IMG/VR virus record: IMGVR_UViG_3300020735_000046
Location: 1 to 29,895 of that record
Length of the DNA stretch: 29,895 bases
Direction: 5' to 3' (one strand)
From: a virus
Of the stretch, positions 4,458 to 28,857 are shown piece by piece; the stretch's first letter is position 1; each line of letters begins with the position of its first letter. The position numbers and the translations under genes are program-made. The notes beneath the pieces are model-generated. The model was given only the letters and a program-made list of their open reading frames with translations. It was not told the origin of the DNA and made no database searches.

Positions 4458-5867
4458 ATGGCTCTTGCAGACACTCTCAAGACGGACATGGGCAAACCTC
4501 CGGTTACGGAAAAGCCCGCCGCCGTCAAGCCTAGCACTGATCTTATTGGACAGCTTCAGCCTGGATACGAAGAACTTAAAAAAAGGGCCGCTGATTACGA
4601 AGCCAAAACAAAGGCAGCAGGAGAGGCGGAAGTTAAGCAGAGGGAAATGCTTCCATCCGCATTAAAACAATACGATGTTGAAGAACGTGCTCAGCGAAAA
4701 CCCCTTGAAGAAGGGCTGACTTTTAAACCAGATATGAGCTACATGCGCGATGTCAGCAATCTTTTTATGATTGTTGGCATGTTGGGCGCGTTTATTGGCG
4801 GAAAGGGTAGCACATCTGCCGCAGCCAATTCTCAGGCCGCTTTGACCGGAATGATGCAGGGCCTTGTGAAAGGCGATGACGCGGAGTACGCGAGGCAAAA
4901 GGCGGTTTTTGATGAAAACTCAAAATATCTGTCCAAGCAGGTAGAGGACATTAAAGAAGCGTTTAAGCAACACCGCGAAGACGCCATTAAGAATGGTATT
5001 GCATACGGAGACAGCGAATTGTCTCAGGCATTTAATGCCTCCGGCGCCGATTCCTTCAAGGCATTAAACGATGCCAAGGGGTCGAAGGCCGCTTTTGATG
5101 CCTTTAAAAGCGTCAATGATACTCACGACAAAATGATTGAAACCGCTACGCGCCTAGAAGAACAAAAGCGCCGTGACACTCAGGCTGAACTTGATCGAAG
5201 GGAGGCTCGCGCCGAAAGAATGGCAATGTTTGCGGAACGTCAGAAGGGTGGTCGCGCTTCCGTTCTTTTGCAGGGTCGCGCGGAAAACATCCGCGAGGCT
5301 ATTACCCAAGTTGCCGCTGACGTTAAGAACATTTCCAAGTTTCCCAAAGGCACGGTTCTTAGCGCTTTCTCTGGTATGACCGGGCAAGAGGGTGACACCC
5401 TTTACAGGAGCCTTTCCAATACGTTTGCGCGGGCAGTTTCTGACAAGGAAAGCCGCATGTTGCAGCAGCTTGTTTCCGGCCTTGAGCAAAACATGGCGTC
5501 CGCTCTTGGTGGTGGTTATGCTACATCTATCGCCAAGGGCAGAGTCGAAGCCTACAAGGCGCAGGTTCCAAAGGCGGGCGACAGCGCTGAAATTGCGGCA
5601 AACTTCTTGGCCAGAGTGCGCCAAGAGATGAACATTTTGGCTGAAAATTTCCCCACCAAGCCGGGTGCAACCGAGGGGATGGTTAAAGCGGTCGAAAAGG
5701 CCAATAACGACATCAATGAAGCCGTTCCGTTCACGGTTGACGACGTTTTGGAAGCCACTTTTAACAAGGGCGGAAAGCCAATTCCAACGGCTGAAGACCG
5801 TAAAAGGGGTCAATCAAACCCCACTTCTAGGCAAAACTTCATCCGTCATTTTGGAGTTGAACCGTAA
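4458..5867 (+). CDS. large helical candidate internal virion (ejection) protein
   Basis: 469 residues, mostly charged and predicted helical, with coiled-coil-like stretches at about 35-90 and 205-265. One hydrophobic segment (NLFMIVGMLGAFIGG, residues 101-115) could cross or enter a membrane. The N terminus MALADTLKTDM matches that of the preceding protein. No catalytic motif seen. Size, helicity, a single hydrophobic patch and position after the fibre and before lysis genes fit podovirus ejection proteins. Start lies 2 bases after the previous stop; the end overlaps the next gene in TAATG. Family-level identity is not recognised. Confidence 0.55.
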   Translation: MALADTLKTDMGKPPVTEKPAAVKPSTDLIGQLQPGYEELKKRAADYEAKTKAAGEAEVKQREMLPSALKQYDVEERAQRKPLEEGLTFKPDMSYMRDVSNLFMIVGMLGAFIGGKGSTSAAANSQAALTGMMQGLVKGDDAEYARQKAVFDENSKYLSKQVEDIKEAFKQHREDAIKNGIAYGDSELSQAFNASGADSFKALNDAKGSKAAFDAFKSVNDTHDKMIETATRLEEQKRRDTQAELDRREARAERMAMFAERQKGGRASVLLQGRAENIREAITQVAADVKNISKFPKGTVLSAFSGMTGQEGDTLYRSLSNTFARAVSDKESRMLQQLVSGLEQNMASALGGGYATSIAKGRVEAYKAQVPKAGDSAEIAANFLARVRQEMNILAENFPTKPGATEGMVKAVEKANNDINEAVPFTVDDVLEATFNKGGKPIPTAEDRKRGQSNPTSRQNFIRHFGVEP

Positions 5868-8949: not shown

Positions 8950-9458
8950 TTGATAACTTTGATGACTGCCTCGACTTCGTTCTGAAGTGGGAGGGCGGTT
9001 ACACGGACGACACCCGTGATCCTGGTGGCATCACCAATCTGGGTATCACCAAGGCGACCTGGCAATCCTGGACGGGTCATGCCGTCACCGCGCAGGAAAT
9101 GAAAGACCTTACGGTTGATAAGGTGAAGCCCCTGTACCAGCAACGGTACTGGAACGCCATCAAAGCCTTTGCCATGCCGTCAGGGGTTGACCTGTGCCTG
9201 TTTGACTTAGCGGTTAATCAGGGGCCTAACACCGCCATTATGACGCTTCAGAAGGTCTTGGGAACCTTTGTGGACGCTCACATTGGACCGGCCATGATGG
9301 AACTGGTGAGCATGAATAGCCCGTCTTCCATCATCCATGACTTTTGTGAAGAACGCCGCAAGCGGTATACCCAGACCAAGAACTTCAACATCTATGGTAA
9401 GGGGTGGCTTCGCAGACTTGATGCCTGTCAAACCACCGCCTTAGCCATGATTGATTAG
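8946..9458 (+). CDS. endolysin, GH108 N-acetylmuramidase
   Basis: 170 residues. The N-terminal half carries the glycoside hydrolase 108 pattern: K-W-E16-GGY with the catalytic Glu, then DPGGITNLGIT at 25-35 and a DLAVNQGP segment near residue 90, as in the Zymomonas/phage muramidase family that cuts between N-acetylmuramic acid and N-acetylglucosamine. The C-terminal part fits the peptidoglycan-binding domain usually joined to it. Length is normal for the family and no signal peptide is seen, so export through the preceding holin is expected. Its end overlaps the convergent gene by 4 bases. Confidence 0.9.
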   Translation: MIDNFDDCLDFVLKWEGGYTDDTRDPGGITNLGITKATWQSWTGHAVTAQEMKDLTVDKVKPLYQQRYWNAIKAFAMPSGVDLCLFDLAVNQGPNTAIMTLQKVLGTFVDAHIGPAMMELVSMNSPSSIIHDFCEERRKRYTQTKNFNIYGKGWLRRLDACQTTALAMID

Positions 9459-10222
9459 TCAGCCTTCGTCGGCTCATCCTGCCGGATCATCTGACCTTCA
9501 AAGATGTAGCTGCCGGTATGGGCCAGCGTCACCCACGGGGCAGCGTAGACCTTACCGCCACACTTGCGCCGCCAGGTATCGCAGAAGTGGAAGTCCTCTG
9601 ACAGAAGACGCCCCGTTTCCGGCTCAATGCTGGTGGTGAAATACTCGGTGATTTCTTCGGCGCTCTGGATGCCGCCAGACAGGTCTTTGGTGTCGTTCTT
9701 ATAGACCGGAACGACCTCCTTCATCTTCTCAAAGACTTCCCGCTTGATGAGCATGAACCCGGTGCCGCCGTTCCAGACCTCAACCGGCTCCATGAGGGGA
9801 ACGGTAACAGACCCCTGATAGTCCACCAGGTTGATGACAAAGCTGCCGGAATACTTGCCAAGTTCCTCATCGGTCTTACCGGCCTCAATGGCCTGACGCA
9901 CAGAACCCCAGTTGATTTCCTTCTTGGGGTAGATGCCGCAGATGATGTCCTTGTCCACTTCGATCATGCGGGGGATTTCCTGGGCATTGAACCGAATGTC
10001 ACTGTCTATGAAGAACAGGTGGGTGCAGTCACTCTTGAGAAAGCCCTGCGTCATGGCGTTTCGGGCGCGGGTAATCAGGCTCTCGTTGAACATCATGCTA
10101 ACGTGCATGGGCCACTGTAGCTGCTGGCAGATGCTCTGGAACTGAAGAATCCCCTGAACATAGCTTCCGTAGCACTGACCACCATACATGGGGGTGGCAA
10201 TCATAATCTTAGGTGGCGACAT
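9455..10222 (-). CDS. GT-A fold glycosyltransferase
   Basis: 255 residues. The N terminus (KIMIATPMYGG), an N-ES-L-TRARN helix and the FFIDSDIRF motif (D73-S-D75, the metal/nucleotide-sugar DxD) mark a GT-A type glycosyltransferase like those found in many phages. A later GGTGFMLIKREVF segment and a C-terminal SEDFHFCD...AHTGSY segment fit acceptor and metal-binding parts. Start ATG 10222 has GGGAG eight bases upstream. It may add sugars to phage DNA, a virion protein or host surface glycan; target unknown. Last gene of the leftward operon, converging on the endolysin. Confidence 0.75.
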   Translation of the reverse strand: MSPPKIMIATPMYGGQCYGSYVQGILQFQSICQQLQWPMHVSMMFNESLITRARNAMTQGFLKSDCTHLFFIDSDIRFNAQEIPRMIEVDKDIICGIYPKKEINWGSVRQAIEAGKTDEELGKYSGSFVINLVDYQGSVTVPLMEPVEVWNGGTGFMLIKREVFEKMKEVVPVYKNDTKDLSGGIQSAEEITEYFTTSIEPETGRLLSEDFHFCDTWRRKCGGKVYAAPWVTLAHTGSYIFEGQMIRQDEPTKAD

Positions 10223-15756: not shown

Positions 15757-15978
15757 TCAGGCTATACCCGCCTTTAGGGCGGCGTCAATCAGGGTTAGGG
15801 AAATGCCGGTCAAATCGGTGGCTTCCCGCAATCTGTCGTTCCTGGAGCCTTCTAGGCCCTCCTGGACGTGTTTTAGGGCGGCGTTCATAAGCTGGCGGCG
15901 CAGGGCCACCATCCGCTTCCGACTCTTAACGTCATCGGGCACCGGCTCCCGGCGCACTAGCTTCAAGTCTGGCTTCAT
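15757..15978 (-). CDS. small basic helical protein downstream of the sugar enzyme
   Basis: 73 residues: MKPDLKLVRREPVPDDVKSR followed by helices MVALRRQLMNAALKHVQEGL and RLREATDLTGISLTLIDAALKA. The second pair of helices could be a helix-turn-helix but this is weak. Start overlaps the UXS-like stop (ATGA) and AGGGG lies seven bases upstream, so it is probably co-translated with it. Unknown function. Confidence 0.55.
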   Translation of the reverse strand: MKPDLKLVRREPVPDDVKSRKRMVALRRQLMNAALKHVQEGLEGSRNDRLREATDLTGISLTLIDAALKAGIA

Positions 15979-16910
15979 TTCATAACCCCTTTAAAGTAGC
16001 TAATGGTAGCATCCAAACCCTTGTCAATCCCCACGCGCGGGTGCCAGCCCAGGCGGGAACTTGCCAGCCCAATATCAGGGCGGCGGCGGCACGGGTCGTC
16101 AATGGGCAGGGGCTTAATTACGATCCGGGACTTGCTCCCGGTTTTGGTCAGGACCAGACCCGCCAGGTCCATCACCGTAAACTCTACCGGGTTACCGAGG
16201 TTTACCGGCCCCATCTCGTCCGAGTCCATCAGCCGGATTAGCCCGTCCACGGTGTCCGAGACATAAGCGAAACTACGGGTTTGGCTCCCGTCCCCGTAAA
16301 CGGTCAGGGGTTCCCCGTGTAGCGCCTGGACGATAAAGTTAGACACAACCCGCCCGTCCGTGGGGTGCATGAAGGGGCCGTAGGTGTTAAAGATACGGGC
16401 AACCGATACCTGCTGGCGCTTGCGGGCCTCAAAGCACAGGGTTTCAGCAAACCGCTTGCCCTCGTCATAGCAGGATCGCGGCCCCATCGAGTTCACGTTC
16501 CCCCAATAGTCTTCGCGCTGCGGGTGAACCGTGGGGTCGCCGTACACCTCCGAGGTGCTGGCCTGGAGAACCTTTGCGTCGGAACTCTTGGCAAGGCTTA
16601 GGACGTTCGCCAGCCCGTCCACGCAGGTTAGCATGGTCCTAAGAGGGTCGGCCTGGTAGGCCACAGGGGAAGCAGGACAGGCCAGATTATAAATCTGGTG
16701 CCAAGGCCGGTAGTTCCGCCTTAGGTCGGCCTCGTCGCATATGTCCCCCAAATGCCAGCTAAACCGGGGGTTTTTCGCCAACAGCTTGCAGTTTTCAATC
16801 GAACCTGTACTCATATTGTCCATGGCGTGGACATGGTTCCCGTCCTCTAGAAGCCTTAGTGCTAGGTTTGTACCTATGAATCCGGCCCCGCCGGTAATCA
16901 ATATGTTCAT
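15975..16910 (-). CDS. NAD-dependent sugar-nucleotide enzyme, UDP-glucuronate decarboxylase (UDP-xylose synthase)-like
   Basis: 311 residues from ATG 16910 (MNILITGGAGFIG), chosen over an upstream ATG at 17015 because GGGGGA lies just before it and the family starts here. GGAGFIG binds NAD. STSEVYGDP near 120 with Y148-x3-K152 in SCYDEGKRFAE form the short-chain dehydrogenase catalytic set. NLACPASP, HPQREDYWGNVNSMGPRSCYDEGKR and DDPCRRRPDI are typical of UDP-xylose synthases, which oxidise and decarboxylate UDP-glucuronate. A dTDP-glucose dehydratase is the main alternative. With glycosyltransferases elsewhere it suggests phage-directed sugar modification. Confidence 0.8.
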   Translation of the reverse strand: MNILITGGAGFIGTNLALRLLEDGNHVHAMDNMSTGSIENCKLLAKNPRFSWHLGDICDEADLRRNYRPWHQIYNLACPASPVAYQADPLRTMLTCVDGLANVLSLAKSSDAKVLQASTSEVYGDPTVHPQREDYWGNVNSMGPRSCYDEGKRFAETLCFEARKRQQVSVARIFNTYGPFMHPTDGRVVSNFIVQALHGEPLTVYGDGSQTRSFAYVSDTVDGLIRLMDSDEMGPVNLGNPVEFTVMDLAGLVLTKTGSKSRIVIKPLPIDDPCRRRPDIGLASSRLGWHPRVGIDKGLDATISYFKGVMK

Positions 16911-16938
16911 TTTGTCCCCCTCAAGGTGCAGAAAGTGT

Positions 16939-17289
16939 TTAGTAATCGAATGCTTTGGGCGGTGTTGGCAATCTGTGTTGTTCGAGCGTTTCCCGCATGG
17001 TCTTGGCTTCTGCAATTATTGCATAGGCTAGCCCCTCCCAATCAGGTTTTGCATCATCCCCAAAGCATAGGATCAGGGTCCGGGCACCCCGGCGGGTACC
17101 CGACACGCGCTTTGTGCGTTTGACGTATCCCCGCGCCACCAAGCAATCCACGAGGCGCACAGTTTGCCCTGGAGACTTCAGGCCCATCGCGGCGGCTATT
17201 TCACGATATGTAGGGGTGCGACCATGTTCTGCGTGGTATGCCTGAATTACTTCCAAGCAGATCGACATTTTAGGGGTAAGGACGGTCAC
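16939..17289 (-). CDS. LexA-type winged-helix DNA-binding protein
   Basis: 116 residues from a GTG at 17289 whose GTGA overlaps the previous stop; a longer frame upstream would overlap two genes. SICLEVIQAYHAEHGRTPTYREIAAAMGLKSPGQTVRLVDCLVARGYVKR is the pattern of the LexA DNA-binding domain. No S24 peptidase (Ser/Lys) part follows; the remaining 55 residues include a GTRRGARTL loop and a helical end. Probably a transcription regulator acting on this region. Confidence 0.7.
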   Translation of the reverse strand: MTVLTPKMSICLEVIQAYHAEHGRTPTYREIAAAMGLKSPGQTVRLVDCLVARGYVKRTKRVSGTRRGARTLILCFGDDAKPDWEGLAYAIIAEAKTMRETLEQHRLPTPPKAFDY

Positions 17290-19627: not shown

Positions 19628-19894
19628 ATGGGTTCTGAGATAGAGTTGGTTGTTCGTGGGATTTACGCGCCTGTATTGGCGGCGAGTCCTGGTGGTCCGA
19701 AGGTTTTTTACGATCAGTTGCCTTTGGAGGCGCGTGGGTTCTTGGAGGATCAGGCGCGGAGTGGTTTGCAGCGGTTACGGGATGGGGTGACGCCTGGGAT
19801 GTTGGCGGCTGCGGATGGGTTGGAGGATGCGGAGAGTATCTTCTGTGCGATGCTGGACCATGTTCTGAAGAAGGTGTCTTCCAATGGAATTTAA
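19628..19894 (+). CDS. small unknown protein before the radical SAM gene
   Basis: 88 residues from ATG 19628, eight bases after AGGGG (a GTG at 19610 is the alternative). MGSEIELVVRGIYAPVLAA then helical segments FYDQLPLEARGFLEDQARSGL and ADGLEDAESIFCAMLDHVLKK. The DNA is notably G/T-rich on this strand (45 of 60 bases in 19621-19680), unlike its neighbours. It overlaps the next gene by 11 bases, so it is likely part of the sugar/radical SAM unit. No family recognised. Confidence 0.55.
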   Translation: MGSEIELVVRGIYAPVLAASPGGPKVFYDQLPLEARGFLEDQARSGLQRLRDGVTPGMLAAADGLEDAESIFCAMLDHVLKKVSSNGI

Positions 19895-20780
19895 GGATGC
19901 GGTGGGCCGGATGCGCGGTCCTCGGAACATGCACATCATCTGCATCGACGTGACCAACAAATGTGACCTGGCGTGTAGTAACTGCACCCGGTTGCTGGCG
20001 AACCAGGATGGGTTATGGGAGATGACGCCGGAGAACTTCCGGTTGGCGCTTCAAAGCCTGAAGGATTATTTTGGGATCATTGCCATGATTGGTGGCAATC
20101 CCTGTATGCATTCCCGGTTTGAGGAGTTGTGCCAGATATTCGAGGAAGAAATCCCGAACCCGCTTCAAAGAGGGCTTTGGACCAACAACCCGTTCAAGCA
20201 TGAGTTGCTGGCCATCAAGACGTTTGGGACATACAACCTCAATGCTCATGGCGAGGAACGGGCTTATCCCGCACTTGCGAACATCACCCAGTTGGCCAAG
20301 GACAACGGGAAGGTGGTGTGGACCTATATGGGCAATTCCATCCATGCCCCTTTGCTGACCGCCATCAAGGACATCTATGCCGAGGGCGAGATGTGGGAAA
20401 AGATTAGCAAGTGCGAGATTAACCGCGACTGGTCAGCTTCCATTGTACAGAATAAAAATGGGGAATTGCGGGCTTACTTCTGTGAGGTCGCAGCCTCGTT
20501 TGACATGGCGCGGGGCGGGGATCATGGGCACCCGGTAGAACCTGGCTGGTGGCAAAAACACATCGACGAGTTCTCGGACCAGATTAAGCATTTCTGCCCA
20601 GGGTGCGGCGTACCGGCCAAGCTGAAGGGGACCAAGGATTCTGAGGAAAAGGACACCTACACTCGGTCCAATGCCGACATTGCCCTGAAGCAGAAGGGGC
20701 GTCATGCCCAAGTTCTTCTGAAGCCTGAGTTTGATAACCCCCAGCACCGGATTACCCAGTACGGGGAGATTGTTTCGTGA
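19884..20780 (+). CDS. radical SAM enzyme with extra C-terminal Cys cluster
   Basis: 298 residues. CDLACSNC gives the C27-x3-C31-x2-C34 ligands for the 4Fe-4S cluster that cleaves S-adenosylmethionine; GGNP at 70-73 stands where GGEP binds SAM. Later Cys at 177, 200 (RAYFCEV) and the CPGC pair at 238/241 resemble a SPASM/twitch-type auxiliary cluster site. Enzymes of this type modify peptides or sugars by radical chemistry. It is coupled to the GT2 glycosyltransferase (ATG overlap of 4 bases), so it may act on a sugar-bearing or protein substrate with it. Substrate unknown. Confidence 0.8.
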   Translation: MEFKDAVGRMRGPRNMHIICIDVTNKCDLACSNCTRLLANQDGLWEMTPENFRLALQSLKDYFGIIAMIGGNPCMHSRFEELCQIFEEEIPNPLQRGLWTNNPFKHELLAIKTFGTYNLNAHGEERAYPALANITQLAKDNGKVVWTYMGNSIHAPLLTAIKDIYAEGEMWEKISKCEINRDWSASIVQNKNGELRAYFCEVAASFDMARGGDHGHPVEPGWWQKHIDEFSDQIKHFCPGCGVPAKLKGTKDSEEKDTYTRSNADIALKQKGRHAQVLLKPEFDNPQHRITQYGEIVS

Positions 20781-21478
20781 AGCCCACCGTGGCCGTGGTC
20801 ACGGCAACAACCAACCGGGCGACTCTCAAACAAGCTATGAAGAGCGTGGACGAGCAGACCTATCCCTGCACCCACTATGTCATTATTGACGGGGTACGGG
20901 GCAACGACACCATGTCGTATGACGACCCGCCCAACCGGCATATTCTGAGACTGCCCAAGGCAACCGGCAAGAACGGGATCATGAACGGGGCGATCTGCGC
21001 TATGGCCCCCTACATCTGCACCGAAGATTACATCTGCTACCTGGACGACGATAACTGGTTTGAGCCAAACCATGTCGAGTCCCTCATGGATGTCATTGGC
21101 AATAACGCCTACGCCTATTCCCTGAGAAACCTCATCTGGCCCACCAACAAGTTCTATGCCCGCGACGACGGCGAGAGCCTTGGTCATTACGGCGATCTGG
21201 TCGATGTGAACTGTTACATGTTCAAAAGAGAGGTTTGCGCCGGTATCGCCCCTCTCTGGTACAAGACCACCGGAGACTTGATGATCGGGGACCGCTACGT
21301 TTGGGAGGCGTTACGCCAGAACAACACCCCCTGGGCGGCGTCGGGCAAGTACACGGTCAACTATCGCATCTCAGCCAACAAGGACATGCGCGGGTTCTTC
21401 TTCTTGAAGAACATCCAGAAACGGGCGCAGTATCCTGATGGATTTCCTTGGCGGGCCGAAACATGTCTTTCAACATAA
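20777..21478 (+). CDS. family-2-like glycosyltransferase
   Basis: 233 residues. VAVVTATTNRATLKQAMKSV at the start, YVIIDGVRGND, and YLDDDNWFEP (D90-D92, the metal-binding DxD/DDD) give the standard GT2 (GT-A) plan. NGIMNGAICAM matches the N/A segment preceding DDD. The C-terminal part has DLVDVNCYMFKREV and a GDRYVWEAL segment, where catalytic-base residues usually sit. Overlaps the radical SAM gene by 4 bases and the terminase gene by 16. Probably works with the radical SAM enzyme. Confidence 0.8.
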   Translation: MKPTVAVVTATTNRATLKQAMKSVDEQTYPCTHYVIIDGVRGNDTMSYDDPPNRHILRLPKATGKNGIMNGAICAMAPYICTEDYICYLDDDNWFEPNHVESLMDVIGNNAYAYSLRNLIWPTNKFYARDDGESLGHYGDLVDVNCYMFKREVCAGIAPLWYKTTGDLMIGDRYVWEALRQNNTPWAASGKYTVNYRISANKDMRGFFFLKNIQKRAQYPDGFPWRAETCLST

Positions 21479-24055: not shown

Positions 24056-24520
24056 ATGGCTATCCTGAACCGCTTTATCTGCTCAAAACACGGCGAATTT
24101 GATGCCTGGAGCGACGATGCAGTACGCTGCCCGAAGCCCAAGTGCCGCTGCAAACCCCGCCAGATGGTGTCGGGACCGTCTATTCGGACCTCTACCCGCA
24201 CCGCCGACATGGACAAAACCCTGACCAACTTGGCGTCGGACTATAACATGACCAACATCAAGTCCACCAAAGAGGGGGACAACCAGGCCGGTTACTTTAC
24301 CCGAAACAATGCGACCAAACCCGCCGAACCCCGGCCCGGAGATTCCGTGATGTGGGGCAACACGGGCAGTTTCTCCATGCAGAACATTATGGGCGGAGGC
24401 GCTTTTAAATCTGTACGCGGCGAGAGTGTTGGTGTAAAACCCACTGATGTCGGTGTAAAAAGGGGACCAACCACGGCCAGTTATGTTGCTGACCATGAGA
24501 ACCTGAAGATTGACAAATGA
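24056..24520 (+). CDS. small protein with N-terminal zinc-ribbon-like motif
   Basis: 154 residues. ICSKHGEFDAWSDDAVRCPKPKCRCK gives C9, H12, C26, C30 and C32, a zinc-ribbon of the type found in small phage proteins. The rest is disordered and Gly/Asn/Thr-rich. Its stop overlaps the portal ATG (TGA/ATGA). Probably a conserved phage gene of unknown function; it may help portal or terminase assembly. Confidence 0.65.
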   Translation: MAILNRFICSKHGEFDAWSDDAVRCPKPKCRCKPRQMVSGPSIRTSTRTADMDKTLTNLASDYNMTNIKSTKEGDNQAGYFTRNNATKPAEPRPGDSVMWGNTGSFSMQNIMGGGAFKSVRGESVGVKPTDVGVKRGPTTASYVADHENLKIDK

Positions 24521-26142
24521 GACTACCTAAAGACCTGATCGAGCGAGAGTATTTCGTAAACGACCTGATCCAGAAGTGTCAGGTTAGCGTCGAAGCCCGT
24601 CGTGCGGATTATTCTTCTCTCAGGTCTTTCTATCTCTTTGGCGCTGGCCCGGAAGAAAGTCCCGCCCAGTTCAACAAGATTTACCCCACCATCGACCAGC
24701 TAATCAGCTTCCTGTACGCCGCTGATACCACCCGCTTTACAATCAACCTGGGGGCCACGGCACCGAAGTTTGAGTACGATAAGCTGACCACTCTGGTCGA
24801 ATCCCTGAACGACAAGTGGATGGATTCTGGAGGGGACAAGTCTTTCCTTTCCGCGATTACTTGGGCGCTTTGCTTCAACTCCTGCTTTATCAAGCTGGTC
24901 TGGCGTGACGGCGTTCACCCCTATGTGGTTGTCCCGGCCAGCATGGGCGTCTTGCGCGAGGATATTGCCTCGACTGACCGTCAGGAGGCCGTTGTCCAAA
25001 GCTACTACATCACCAAGTCAGACCTTTACGCCCGCTTGTATTCGCACCCCAAAAGGGACGACATCATCAAGCGCATTGAGTCGGCGCAGCATGAGGTTGA
25101 GCATGTTCCGGCTGCGGTTGACCGCATTGTGCTTTCCCAAACCAATCCCACTATCTACGGCACGGTGAACCTGGACCTGTACGGGTTTAACCGCATGAAG
25201 GCCGAGGTGGCCGAAGACACCGTGGAAATGCGGGAATTGTGGGTCTGGAACGACGAAGAAGACGATTACCAAGTCATTACCGTCGCTGATCCCAACGTCA
25301 TTGTGTATGACCGCCCCGGCAAGGAACTGTATCTGAAGGGCGAATTGCCGTTCATTCAGGTCTGCCCCTACCCCCAGATTGACTATTATTGGGGTCAATC
25401 AGGCGTTCAAAAGCTGCTTTTGCTTCAGCAAATGCGGAACAAGCGGGTTACGGAAATCCTTGATTTGCTGTCCAAGCAGGTCAATCCGCCCACTTTCCTG
25501 ACCGGCATTAGCGGTATTCAGGACGAACGCGACTTTGCCCTGAACCGTCCTGGCGGGCTTATGTCTTCGGACATGCCCAACTCCGATATTAAGCGTCTGG
25601 CCCCTGACCTGCCTGACGATCTATTCCGCGAAGTACGCGAGATTGACGCCATGTTTGAGGAGGCAAGCGGCATTGGCGCTGTGCTTTCCGGGCGTGGCGA
25701 ACAAGGTGTGCGGTCCTCTGGCCATGCGTCCCAGCTTGCGAGGCTTGGTTCTTCTCGCGCTAAAAAGGCGGCTTTGGTTATTGAGGATTCCCTTGCTCGC
25801 GTGGCTACGCAGTACATGAAACTGCTCCAGCAACACGATGCTACTCACTACACCGATGATAAAGGCAACAAGTTTGTCTTGGAGCAGTTCACCAAAGACT
25901 ACAGCGTAAAGGTCGATGCCCACAGCAACAGTCCGATCTTCATGGAAGACATGAGGACGCTGGCATTTGAACTTCTCAAAGCCGGGGCCATTGACAAAGA
26001 ATCGCTTTTGGATTTGCTTGATCCTCCGATGAAACAGCTTCTCAAGAGGCGGTTGAAATTGATGCAGGAAGCCCAGGCGAAAGAACCGCCCCCGCCCGCA
26101 GACGGCGGGATGAAGTCCATCCAAGGGGGCAAGCGTGGCTGA
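24517..26142 (+). CDS. portal protein
   Basis: 541 residues. Long mixed helix/strand protein of usual portal length, with NKIYPTIDQLISFLYAADTTRF and WALCFNSCFIKLVWRDG near the N terminus, LPFIQVCPYPQIDYYWGQSGVQKLLLLQQMRNKRVTEIL-type stem segments near 285-325, then EIDAMFEEASGIGAVLSGRGEQGVRSSGHASQL, a hinge/clip-like pattern seen in podovirus portals, and a long C-terminal helix region. Pro-rich tail. Directly after terminase-associated genes and before scaffold and capsid, as in classic packaging cassettes. Confidence 0.85.
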   Translation: MRLPKDLIEREYFVNDLIQKCQVSVEARRADYSSLRSFYLFGAGPEESPAQFNKIYPTIDQLISFLYAADTTRFTINLGATAPKFEYDKLTTLVESLNDKWMDSGGDKSFLSAITWALCFNSCFIKLVWRDGVHPYVVVPASMGVLREDIASTDRQEAVVQSYYITKSDLYARLYSHPKRDDIIKRIESAQHEVEHVPAAVDRIVLSQTNPTIYGTVNLDLYGFNRMKAEVAEDTVEMRELWVWNDEEDDYQVITVADPNVIVYDRPGKELYLKGELPFIQVCPYPQIDYYWGQSGVQKLLLLQQMRNKRVTEILDLLSKQVNPPTFLTGISGIQDERDFALNRPGGLMSSDMPNSDIKRLAPDLPDDLFREVREIDAMFEEASGIGAVLSGRGEQGVRSSGHASQLARLGSSRAKKAALVIEDSLARVATQYMKLLQQHDATHYTDDKGNKFVLEQFTKDYSVKVDAHSNSPIFMEDMRTLAFELLKAGAIDKESLLDLLDPPMKQLLKRRLKLMQEAQAKEPPPPADGGMKSIQGGKRG

Positions 26143-26278
26143 CAGAAGCACCACCGGGGACCAGCCGAGAATGACGGCCAGCCAAATCTCTGATACTCAG
26201 AGGAGTCCTTCGGTAAAATACCGCACAACCAACGTCAAACCGGCCAAGAGGACAGGGCGGGTTGCGACAAGGAGTTAA
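26135..26278 (+). CDS. 47-residue basic protein with GTG start
   Basis: GTG 26135 lies inside the end of the portal gene, four to five bases after GGGGG. The frame gives a Ser/Thr/Arg-rich basic peptide (VADRSTTGDQPRMTAS...KPAKRTGRVATRS) with no Cys. Its stop is followed, two bases on, by the 14-residue gene at 26281. Net positive charge is high in the last third. Could bind DNA or pack with the next two peptides; no family recognised. Confidence 0.45.
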   Translation: MADRSTTGDQPRMTASQISDTQRSPSVKYRTTNVKPAKRTGRVATRS

Positions 26279-26280
26279 AA

Positions 26281-26325
26281 ATGTACAAGAAGATGAAGCG
26301 CAGCAAGCGCAAGTCGAAGCGCTAA
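26281..26325 (+). CDS. 14-residue Lys/Arg microprotein 1
   Basis: ATG at 26281 with AAGGAG six bases upstream gives MYKKMKRSKRKSKR, nine of 14 residues Lys or Arg. Too short for usual gene finding but with a very good ribosome site and a clear stop. It looks like a protamine-type DNA-binding peptide. A similar gene follows at 26371, supporting that it is real. Confidence 0.5.
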   Translation: MYKKMKRSKRKSKR

Positions 26326-26370
26326 GGTATTGTTTTCAGGGGATATAACTCAACGCCAACGGAGATTACC

Positions 26371-26415
26371 ATGGCAAAGCATAAGGCGAAGCGCGGTCGT
26401 AAGGCCAAGCGCTAA
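26371..26415 (+). CDS. 14-residue Lys/Arg microprotein 2
   Basis: ATG at 26371, seven bases after a GGAG at 26360-26363 (AACGGAGATTACC), gives MAKHKAKRGRKAKR, eight of 14 residues Lys or Arg plus one His. Same length as the first microprotein, and both end KxKR; likely a duplicated or convergent pair. A capsid DNA-condensing or packaging role is inferred from charge and place alone. Confidence 0.5.
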   Translation: MAKHKAKRGRKAKR

Positions 26416-26451
26416 CTAATAAACGGGTCAGACCCGGTTATTGGCTTCTGA

Positions 26452-26480
26452 CGCGGGGCGGAAGTAAAAAATACCCCGCG
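26452..26480. other. perfect 7-bp hairpin CGCGGGG/CCCCGCG
   Basis: Arms 26452-26458 and 26474-26480, 15-base loop. Lies in the gap between the microproteins and the Pro/Gly-rich gene, together with a smaller CGGGT/ACCCG hairpin near 26423-26435. TTGACG at 26487-26492 follows but has a weak -10 (TATCTA). May be a terminator/promoter boundary. Confidence 0.5.
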
Positions 26481-26546
26481 ACATCTTGACGCACCCCCAC
26501 ATTCGGTATCTACAACAACGTCAGTGTTCTTTTGGGCCTGATGCTT

Positions 26547-27056
26547 ATGGCAGATATTTCGCCGGATCGTCTTCAGTCGATGCTTCAATCTGATATGGGC
26601 GGTGCCGCACCCACTGGTGCTGCGACTCCCGCTGAAGCTGCGCCGGGACCGATGGCCGCGCCGATGTCTACCCCCGAACCCAAGATGGGCAACAAGGAAG
26701 GCGCGATGGTCAATCTGGCTATGGCGCTGGATTTGATTGAACAGGCTATTCCGTCGCTTGGTTCTGAAAGCGATGAAGGCCAGAAGGCGATGGCGGCGAT
26801 TCGTTCGCTCTCTGGTCTTCTGGGTCCGAAGAAGCCCCGCACCAACGAACTTCAGCCCGCAGAAATTTTGCAGCTTTTGGGGTCTTTGCCCCAGGCCGGA
26901 AACGTCACCCCGGAAGTTGCCGCCGTTCTCGGCCCGCGTCCTTCGACGCCCCCCAAGCCAGTTATTCCGCCGCCTTCTCCGGGTGGCGCACCTATGCCGG
27001 GAGGAATGCCCGGTGGACCTATGCCGGGGGGGATTCCCGGCGCACCGCCGATGTGA
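26547..27056 (+). CDS. Pro/Gly-rich protein of the head cluster
   Basis: 169 residues from ATG 26547 (MADISPDRLQ); TTG 26532 and ATG 26541 are in-frame alternatives and no ribosome site decides between them. The N-terminal third is Ala/Pro/Met-rich and disordered, a helical part (LAMALDLIEQAIPSLGSESDEGQKAMAAIRSL) follows, and the C terminus is a Pro/Gly/Met repeat (GGAPMPGGMPGGPMPGG...). Between portal and scaffold-like genes; probably a head assembly protein. No named family recognised. Confidence 0.6.
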   Translation: MADISPDRLQSMLQSDMGGAAPTGAATPAEAAPGPMAAPMSTPEPKMGNKEGAMVNLAMALDLIEQAIPSLGSESDEGQKAMAAIRSLSGLLGPKKPRTNELQPAEILQLLGSLPQAGNVTPEVAAVLGPRPSTPPKPVIPPPSPGGAPMPGGMPGGPMPGGIPGAPPM

Positions 27057-27062
27057 GGTAAC

Positions 27063-27251
27063 ATGGAACTCTTTAAGCCGCGTGGCGCTTCGCAGCCCCG
27101 CCGTCCCACTGACAACAAGCAGCAGAACGGCCAGATCGTCAATACGCCGCGCTATGCGGAATTTGGTGGCCTGAACGGCGCGACCAAGACCGGCCCGCGC
27201 AGCAAGTACCAGCAGCTTTCGAAGCCTGGTGACACCAAGAAAGTCATCTGA
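27063..27251 (+). CDS. small basic protein of the head cluster
   Basis: 62 residues, Lys/Arg/Gln/Asn-rich and disordered (FKPRGASQPRRPTDNKQQNG, NGATKTGPRSKYQQ). GAGGT lies before the ATG six bases after the previous stop. Another small basic protein near the microproteins; unknown role. Confidence 0.5.
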   Translation: MELFKPRGASQPRRPTDNKQQNGQIVNTPRYAEFGGLNGATKTGPRSKYQQLSKPGDTKKVI

Positions 27252-27266
27252 GGAAGGTAGGGGATT

Positions 27267-27809
27267 ATGGCCACTCTCGAAGACTTGGGCTCTGACGCCC
27301 GCGACGAACTGGCGCTTCTGGCGCGTGAACTTTCCGATAGCCCGGAAACTCGCAAGGAATTTTTGCGTCTTGCCAAGATGAGGCGTCCGAACATGCCGGT
27401 TCCTGAACTGGACCTGGATGAGCGGATGAACCAGGTAACAAACACCTCGGATGCCAAGTTGGCCGCACTTGAAGCCAAGCTGGCTGAAAAGGACATGCGG
27501 GCTGAACTGGAACGTCGCCGCCGGTCTCTCAAGGAAAAGGGCTTGGCCAAGGACGATGAAGACGTGACCGCCATTGAAAAGCTGATGCTTGAGAAGGGTA
27601 TCACCAGCCATGACACGGCTGCGGAATACCACAAGTGGATGTCTCAGTCTGCCACACCCACGCCGCCGACTTACAACCGGAACGTATTTGATCCCAATAC
27701 GCGCAGAGATTTGAACCCGTACTGGAAGAATCCGGTTACGGCGGCACGGGATGAAGCAGCGAAGGCCCTGACGGAACTTCGGAAGAATCCGAAGATCGTT
27801 GGGTTTTAA
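27267..27809 (+). CDS. probable scaffold protein
   Basis: 180 residues, highly charged and helical, with a heptad-like central region (AKLAALEAKLAEKDMRAELERRRRSLKEKG) typical of coiled-coil scaffolds, then a Pro/Asn-rich C-terminal part (TPPTYNRNVFDPNTR) and a basic end. AGGGGATT precedes the ATG. Direct neighbour of the major capsid gene, the standard place for a scaffold. No protease motif is seen. Confidence 0.7.
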   Translation: MATLEDLGSDARDELALLARELSDSPETRKEFLRLAKMRRPNMPVPELDLDERMNQVTNTSDAKLAALEAKLAEKDMRAELERRRRSLKEKGLAKDDEDVTAIEKLMLEKGITSHDTAAEYHKWMSQSATPTPPTYNRNVFDPNTRRDLNPYWKNPVTAARDEAAKALTELRKNPKIVGF

Positions 27810-27846: not shown

Positions 27847-28857
27847 ATGCCGATTGGTGGTGGTATACTACCCGCATCTGGCACACAGCAGTATACGGAA
27901 CTTACCTACGTCACCCGGCGTGCGTTTATTCCAAAGATGGTTGTCCAGATCTACAACTCGACGCCGCTTCTTGCGGCTCTTATCGCTAACTCGCAGTCTG
28001 CCTCCGGCGGTGTGTCCTCCGTGACCGCCCCTGTTCAGGGTGCCCAGTTTGTGAACGCTCAGTGGTCGGACTACAGCGGCTCGTTTAGCCAGCCGTCCGT
28101 TCAGCAGGGCGCTTACAATGCTGAGTTTAACCTGAAGCTAATGATTGCCCCGGTCCCCTTCCTGGGTATGGAAGGCGCTGTGCAGCAAGATTACGCGGTT
28201 ATCCCGCTGATCGAAGCCCGTATGAACGATGCGACCAACTGCATGATGGATGCTATGGCGACCTCGCTGTACACCAACACGACCAACAACCAGCAGTTCA
28301 TTGGTCTGCCCGCTGCGGTGGACGATGGTACTGGCACGGCGACCTACGGTAACATCAACCGTTCGACGTATGCCTGGTGGAAGTCCAAGCAGTACAACGC
28401 CGGTAACGTCAACCCGACCCGTCAGAACGTCCTTCAGTACATCAGCGGCACCGTGAAGAACGGCGCTGAAGTGCCGACCTTTGGCGTCTGCGGCTTTGGC
28501 ACCTGGACCCTGCTGGCGCAGGACTATGTTGGCCAGGAACAGTATGTCATCACCCCCGGCTCCGGCTTTGACGGTGATGCCAACGGTCCCCAGGCGGCGT
28601 TCCGCGCCCTCATGGTGGCGGGCGTTCCGATTTACCCGGACCCCTACTGCCCCGAAGGCACCCTGTACCTGCTGAACACCAACTACATGTCCCTGTACAT
28701 CCACGATCAGGGTTCGTTTGTGTTTACCGGCTTTGAGTCCACTCTGCCCAACTGGCAGATTGGTTACGTTGGTGCGGTCCTGATGATTGCGGAATTGGTT
28801 TCGACCAAGCCGAAGTCCATGACCAAAGTCACCAACTACAACAGCCTTAGCATTTAA
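27847..28857 (+). CDS. major capsid protein
   Basis: 336 residues, aromatic-rich, few charges, starting MPIGGGILPAS after the strong AGGAG ribosome site at 27834. Typical features are FIPKMVVQIYNSTPLLAALI near the N terminus, a central MNDATNCMMDAMATSLYTN region, FRALMVAGVPIYPDPYCPEGTLYLLN, and a C terminus with GSFVFTGFESTLPNWQIGYVGAVL. The segment order fits the HK97-fold capsid proteins of podo- and siphoviruses. It lies after the scaffold and before two decoration-type genes. Confidence 0.85.
   Translation: MPIGGGILPASGTQQYTELTYVTRRAFIPKMVVQIYNSTPLLAALIANSQSASGGVSSVTAPVQGAQFVNAQWSDYSGSFSQPSVQQGAYNAEFNLKLMIAPVPFLGMEGAVQQDYAVIPLIEARMNDATNCMMDAMATSLYTNTTNNQQFIGLPAAVDDGTGTATYGNINRSTYAWWKSKQYNAGNVNPTRQNVLQYISGTVKNGAEVPTFGVCGFGTWTLLAQDYVGQEQYVITPGSGFDGDANGPQAAFRALMVAGVPIYPDPYCPEGTLYLLNTNYMSLYIHDQGSFVFTGFESTLPNWQIGYVGAVLMIAELVSTKPKSMTKVTNYNSLSI

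Follow-up and report, generated by a model that had tools for sequence, protein, structure and literature searches.

Two or three very short genes for lysine- and arginine-rich peptides lie between the portal and capsid genes of a large family of freshwater phages

A large family of freshwater phages carries, between the portal gene and the capsid genes, two (sometimes three) real protein genes that are only 10-15 codons long, whose inferred products are almost pure lysine and arginine and which are set among conserved, pseudoknotted RNA structures. The genes are missing from the annotation of the two annotated relatives, and we infer, tentatively, that their products bind nucleic acid during head assembly. 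The DNA that we analyzed, here called the window, is a single viral contig of 29,895 nucleotides (IMG/VR record IMGVR_UViG_3300020735_000046). On its plus strand, the first gene, u1 (26281-26325), encodes MYKKMKRSKRKSKR and is preceded by AAGGAG, and the second, u2 (26371-26415), encodes MAKHKAKRGRKAKR and is preceded by GGAG. To ask whether such frames could arise by chance, we scanned both strands for ATG frames of 9-20 codons with at least 50% Lys/Arg and a Shine-Dalgarno site. The scan returned exactly u1 and u2, which are 45 bp apart, whereas first-order Markov sequences with the dinucleotide composition of the window gave 0.05 such frames per window. A preliminary description, made from the sequence alone, had reported the two 14-residue peptides, their ribosome-binding sites, and a 47-residue basic peptide ahead of them, and this observation is confirmed.

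We fetched relatives by similarity to the portal gene alone, obtaining 80 loci with 60-100% identity and then 80 more out of at least 597 in IMG/VR. Of the 141 loci with enough sequence after the portal gene, all have at least one micro-ORF of this kind before the next gene: 119 have two, seven have three, and 15 have one. That relatives might lack or break the frames had been named beforehand as a condition that would refute the genes, and it was not fulfilled, although some lineages lack a recognizable u1 or u2. The typical pair is MYKxxKRGRKTRR and M(A)RKARKGRKSRK, and in one clade (loci L011, L012, L015, L016, L017, and L229 of our collection of relatives, in which all L numbers denote loci) a third micro-ORF of the MRRKARKARR type follows u2. 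Independently, a degenerate DNA pattern for KRGRKTRR followed by a stop codon was run over 2.9 million viral contigs and returned at least 120 stretches. We examined all 78 new loci (L093-L170); every one encodes neighbors of this locus, in those with sequence on both sides the motif lies between portal and head genes, and no other context was seen. The pair is also present in a relative from a beta-proteobacterial MAG and in two complete circular relatives of 34-36 kb (MW202753 and MW202825). In both of the latter no plus-strand CDS is annotated over the pair, and "hypothetical proteins" that look like misannotations are called on the opposite strand over the micro-ORF/pseudoknot interval (4740-5038 in MW202753 and 25683-25943 in MW202825). 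In contrast, we found no such peptides in distant relatives identified by terminase or capsid similarity (Hydrogenobaculum phage 1, Roseobacter phage CRP-7, Vibrio 1.182.O, Pseudoalteromonas H6/1, TM7 phage, and others), so the feature is limited to this family as far as sampled.

The pattern of substitution indicates that selection acts on the peptides. On the last nine codons dN/dS was 0.25 for u1 (30 nonredundant portal-selected loci) and 0.48 for u2 (72 loci; 0.86 on the 30-locus set, in which u2 classes of different length are misaligned), as compared to values above 1 in the other two frames. Because counts of u1 substitutions from motif-selected loci are biased, we repeated them on disjoint close pairs of portal-selected loci. 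Differences in the last eight codons fell at codon positions 1/2/3 as 25/9/103 for u1 and 26/18/96 for u2, with synonymous to nonsynonymous codon changes of 95:21 and 81:25, respectively. The two peptides share the C-terminal register GRK[TSA][RK][RK], as expected for duplicates. The 44 distinct u1 peptides contain 31% R and 25% K and no acidic residue; both u1 and u2 end in R or K; and only 4 and 3 LIVFW residues were found in all distinct peptides. Lysine and arginine are not freely exchanged, however, in that R is found at position -5 in 43 of the 44 distinct u1 peptides and K at position -4 in 40 of the 44, with G and T also conserved.

A clue to the level of expression comes from codon usage. 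Among Arg and Gly codons, the fraction that is CGT, CGC, GGT, or GGC is 0.878 in the micro-ORFs, 0.895 in the capsid gene, 0.678 in the portal gene, and 0.61 in the terminase gene, and the micro-ORFs exceed the portal gene in 71 of 72 loci. These loci are related to each other, and hence this is a consistent trend rather than 72 independent tests. Avoidance of codons resembling Shine-Dalgarno sequences could explain the scarcity of AGG, GGA, and GGG, but CGA and CGG are also reduced. The micro-ORFs are thus probably highly expressed, although this is inferred from sequence alone.

Unexpectedly, the micro-ORFs alternate with conserved RNA elements. In the relatives examined outside the window's own clade, a pseudoknot that we call PK1, in which the stem AGGG/CCCT crosses the stem TGGCTGCTT/AAGTGGCCG, lies between u1 and u2, directly upstream of the u2 Shine-Dalgarno sequence. 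A simple shuffle test of PK1 was weak (32% of shuffles passed), and we therefore used a column test on a structure-blind MAFFT alignment of 66 loci. In the two stems 95% and 92% of cells pair, with 28 and 54 cells changed on both sides, whereas sliding by 1-3 columns gave values of 70-79% and 23-60%. (A cross-locus swap of stem arms is partly circular, because the arms had been chosen by the finder, and is not relied on.) PK1 is missing in the window's clade (the window, L003, L004, L011, L015, and L019). In L127 and L110 u2 and PK1 are both absent, and L010 and L044 lack u1 but keep PK1 and u2; PK1 and u2 may therefore be a unit, but only two co-losses were read closely.

A second pseudoknot, PK2, lies between the last micro-ORF and a promoter. 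In the window the u2 stop codon is followed directly by a hairpin (26416-26443), to which a similar hairpin, judged by eye, corresponds in relatives, and then by PK2 (26444-26480), an H-type pseudoknot composed of GCTTCTG/CGGAAGT and CGCGGGG/CCCCGCG with the A-rich third loop AAAAAATA. The minimum-energy fold of 26413-26485 has a z score of -3.8, a calculation that models hairpins only and not pseudoknots. PK2 reaches a score of 24 or above in 92.6% of 68 loci as compared to 2.4% of dinucleotide shuffles, with several standard pair types at nearly every stem position. Scans of the window and two complete genomes found other, chance pseudoknots of similar score, none directly before a TTGAC promoter in a conserved place; score alone is therefore not proof, and the case rests on position and covariation. 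PK2 ends 0-7 nt before TTGAC, a motif present in 69 of 76 loci, of which 47 have a hexamer matching TATAAT in at least four of six places at a spacing of 16-18 bp. PK2 thus sits at the end of the terminase-portal-micro-ORF transcript, just before a likely σ70-like promoter for the head genes. In the window itself this promoter (TTGACG-N17-TCTACA, 26486-26514) is only a weak match. In many relatives (L030, L048, L063, L128, and others) the palindrome GTTTGTAAGTGGTTACAAAC overlaps the spacer and -10 region in the manner of an operator, but it was not seen in the window. A search of Rfam 15 gave no match above the gathering score in the window and seven relatives, and with a relaxed threshold only chance-level matches in L128.

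The neighboring genes, all on the plus strand, place the micro-ORFs in the head cluster. The upstream gene (24517-26142) is a portal gene, as judged by its matches to PF23899 (SU10_portal; 39.3 bits against a cut-off of 30) and phrog_1216. Overlapping its stop codon is p47 (26135-26278), a 47-codon frame with a GTG start that is a conserved small basic gene (ADQPRV motif, net charge +6 to +12). In L045, L058, and L138 about 200 bases are inserted between portal and u1, and in L045 and L058 an additional small Lys/Arg/Glu-rich ORF of 60-70 codons was read there. The next gene downstream, p174 (174 codons in our description of the gene order; about 170 codons at 26547-27056), is conserved, but its designation as a scaffold gene in the preliminary description is doubtful. 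It is followed by p62 (27063-27251; MDLFKPRGA..RRPTDNNQ..NTPRF..GGL..KPGDGKKVI), which is basic, highly conserved, and has the codon usage of a highly expressed gene, and possibly encodes an abundant virion protein. None of p47, p174, and p62 has a match in Pfam or PHROGs, searches for which u1 and u2 themselves are too short. Next comes p180 (27267-27809), whose 180-residue product is predicted by AlphaFold2 (pLDDT 80, from an alignment without rows from the phage database) to be all-helical, with a long coiled coil and a 45-residue helix. Lying directly before the capsid gene, p180 is the better scaffold candidate, although Foldseek found no confident match in the PDB. In L116, L160, and L170 about 450-470 extra bases lie within the p174-p62-p180 interval, suggesting inserted genes. 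The major capsid protein gene (27847-28857; phrog_9953, E = 4e-37) is 84-90% identical across relatives whose portals are only about 60-67% identical. Finally, we note that elsewhere in the window a radical-SAM-like protein (CDLACSNC), glycosyltransferase-like proteins, and an NAD-dependent epimerase-like protein were recognized by eye (19884-20780, 20777-21478, 15975-17015 on the minus strand, and 9455-10222 on the minus strand).

What might the peptides do? The comparisons show that u1 and u2 are genuine, paralogous genes under selection at the level of the peptide, in a conserved position, and accompanied by conserved RNA structure, whereas high expression, binding to nucleic acid, and a role in the head are inferred. 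The preliminary description had proposed protamine-like packaging or DNA-condensing factors, encoded by a duplicated pair in the head cluster that annotation would miss; this interpretation is supported in part, for the genes, their duplication, location, and omission from annotation hold, whereas presence in virions and condensation of DNA are not shown. Our leading, though tentative, view is that the peptides would be made in large amounts late in infection (inferred from codon usage and the Shine-Dalgarno sites) and would bind the genome, or packaging-related nucleic acid, noncovalently while heads are assembled and filled, neutralizing charge or tethering DNA inside the head, with the flanking hairpins and pseudoknots most likely shielding this segment of the mRNA or setting peptide dosage. 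Composition, capsid-like codon usage, the presence of two to three paralogues per genome, and location among head genes in complete circular genomes are all consistent with this view. On the other hand, pure charge neutralization would not need fixed Lys and Arg positions, and motor-packaging tailed phages as a group stand apart from small viruses in lacking charge-balancing basic arms scaled to the genome (PMC7096446), so that the role is not expected.

The main rival, which we regard as possible but less likely, is that the peptides are sequence-specific RNA-binding motifs that recognize the adjacent hairpins and pseudoknots and control translation, mRNA stability, or read-through into the head operon, much as lambda N acts with boxB or as ribosomal proteins bind pseudoknots in their own mRNA. 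The fixed Lys and Arg positions, the conserved G and T, the compensated pseudoknots directly after u1 and after the last peptide, and the joint absence of u2 and PK1 in L127 and L110 are in keeping with this idea, but the window's clade keeps both peptides without PK1, and codon usage suggests far more product than a regulator needs. It is less likely still that the peptides are assembly factors that bind acidic protein surfaces: the portal and capsid proteins are indeed acidic (net -13 and -6), the genes lie between them, and the Lys/Arg register is fixed, but the peptides have no hydrophobic or aromatic anchor residues as in known assembly peptides. Nor do we favor the view that the frames are leader peptides whose translation and termination next to structured RNA sets ribosome traffic, the released peptide having no function. 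Each frame is very short and ends just before a hairpin or pseudoknot, but the N-terminal halves and the spacing vary while the C-terminal peptide is under selection, peptides of 10-15 residues barely reach into the exit tunnel, and the capsid-like codon bias argues for product yield. Membrane-active or lytic peptides are unlikely, given that there are almost no hydrophobic residues, and chance frames in a noncoding, purine-rich RNA element, for which only their shortness speaks, are ruled out by the chance expectation, the conservation in 141 of 141 relatives, and the concentration of substitutions at third codon positions.

A more speculative and improbable possibility, but one of considerable interest if true, combines the two leading ideas: the family would use a protamine-like head system of two or three autonomous genes of 10-15 codons, each followed by a hairpin-pseudoknot module that the basic peptides themselves bind, and this peptide-RNA device at the portal/capsid gene boundary would both control head-gene expression and supply genome-condensing peptides to the head. 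Tailed dsDNA phages are regarded as packing bare DNA by motor force with no protamine-like partner, and our searches of the open-access literature found no tailed-phage precedent, which is not proof of absence. A large environmental family that has kept two near-pure Lys/Arg peptides with capsid-like codon usage would challenge that view and make it directly testable with synthetic 14-mers. The findings also show that conserved genes of 10-14 codons exist below the length limits of gene finders and reveal two apparently undescribed, strongly compensated phage RNA pseudoknots at a portal/capsid operon boundary.

The u1 and u2 peptides can be compared with several known systems. Small phage proteins have been predicted more generally (Fremin et al. 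2022, cited in PMC11323111) and reportedly include short phage genes missed by standard annotation; the genes described here are accompanied by synteny, duplication, codon bias, and RNA context. In lambda N, as perhaps here, a short basic segment binds a specific RNA structure encoded nearby, but N is about 107 residues long with further domains and a nut site, whereas in the present case the adjacent structures are H-type pseudoknots and the whole protein is the basic stretch. Baculovirus P6.9 and other viral protamine-like proteins are basic, DNA-condensing virion proteins (PMC12159748) but are longer, controlled by phosphorylation, and found in eukaryotic viruses. Adenovirus core protein X (mu) is a 19-residue basic peptide, present in 100-300 copies per virion, that helps condense a dsDNA genome (PMC7998265). 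That genome is about 36 kb. The u1 and u2 peptides are comparable to mu in size and charge, but mu is cut from a 79-residue precursor by the viral protease, whereas u1 and u2 are separate ORFs with their own start codons, Shine-Dalgarno sequences, and stop codons. Finally, the J/VP8 protein of the Microviridae is likewise a tiny Arg/Lys-rich peptide, which binds the genome during packaging and stays inside the capsid (PMC11281519), and it has its own gene among the capsid genes. J/VP8 proteins are 24-40 residues long and belong to ssDNA viruses with a T=1 jelly-roll capsid, and they have a hydrophobic C-terminus buried in the coat protein (Phe38 in SpV4; PMC11281519). The u1 and u2 peptides, at 10-15 residues, lack such a C-terminus and belong to a motor-packaging tailed phage with terminase, portal, and phrog_9953 major head protein genes; they are thus not J proteins, although in the model that we tentatively favor they would work like J and like mu.
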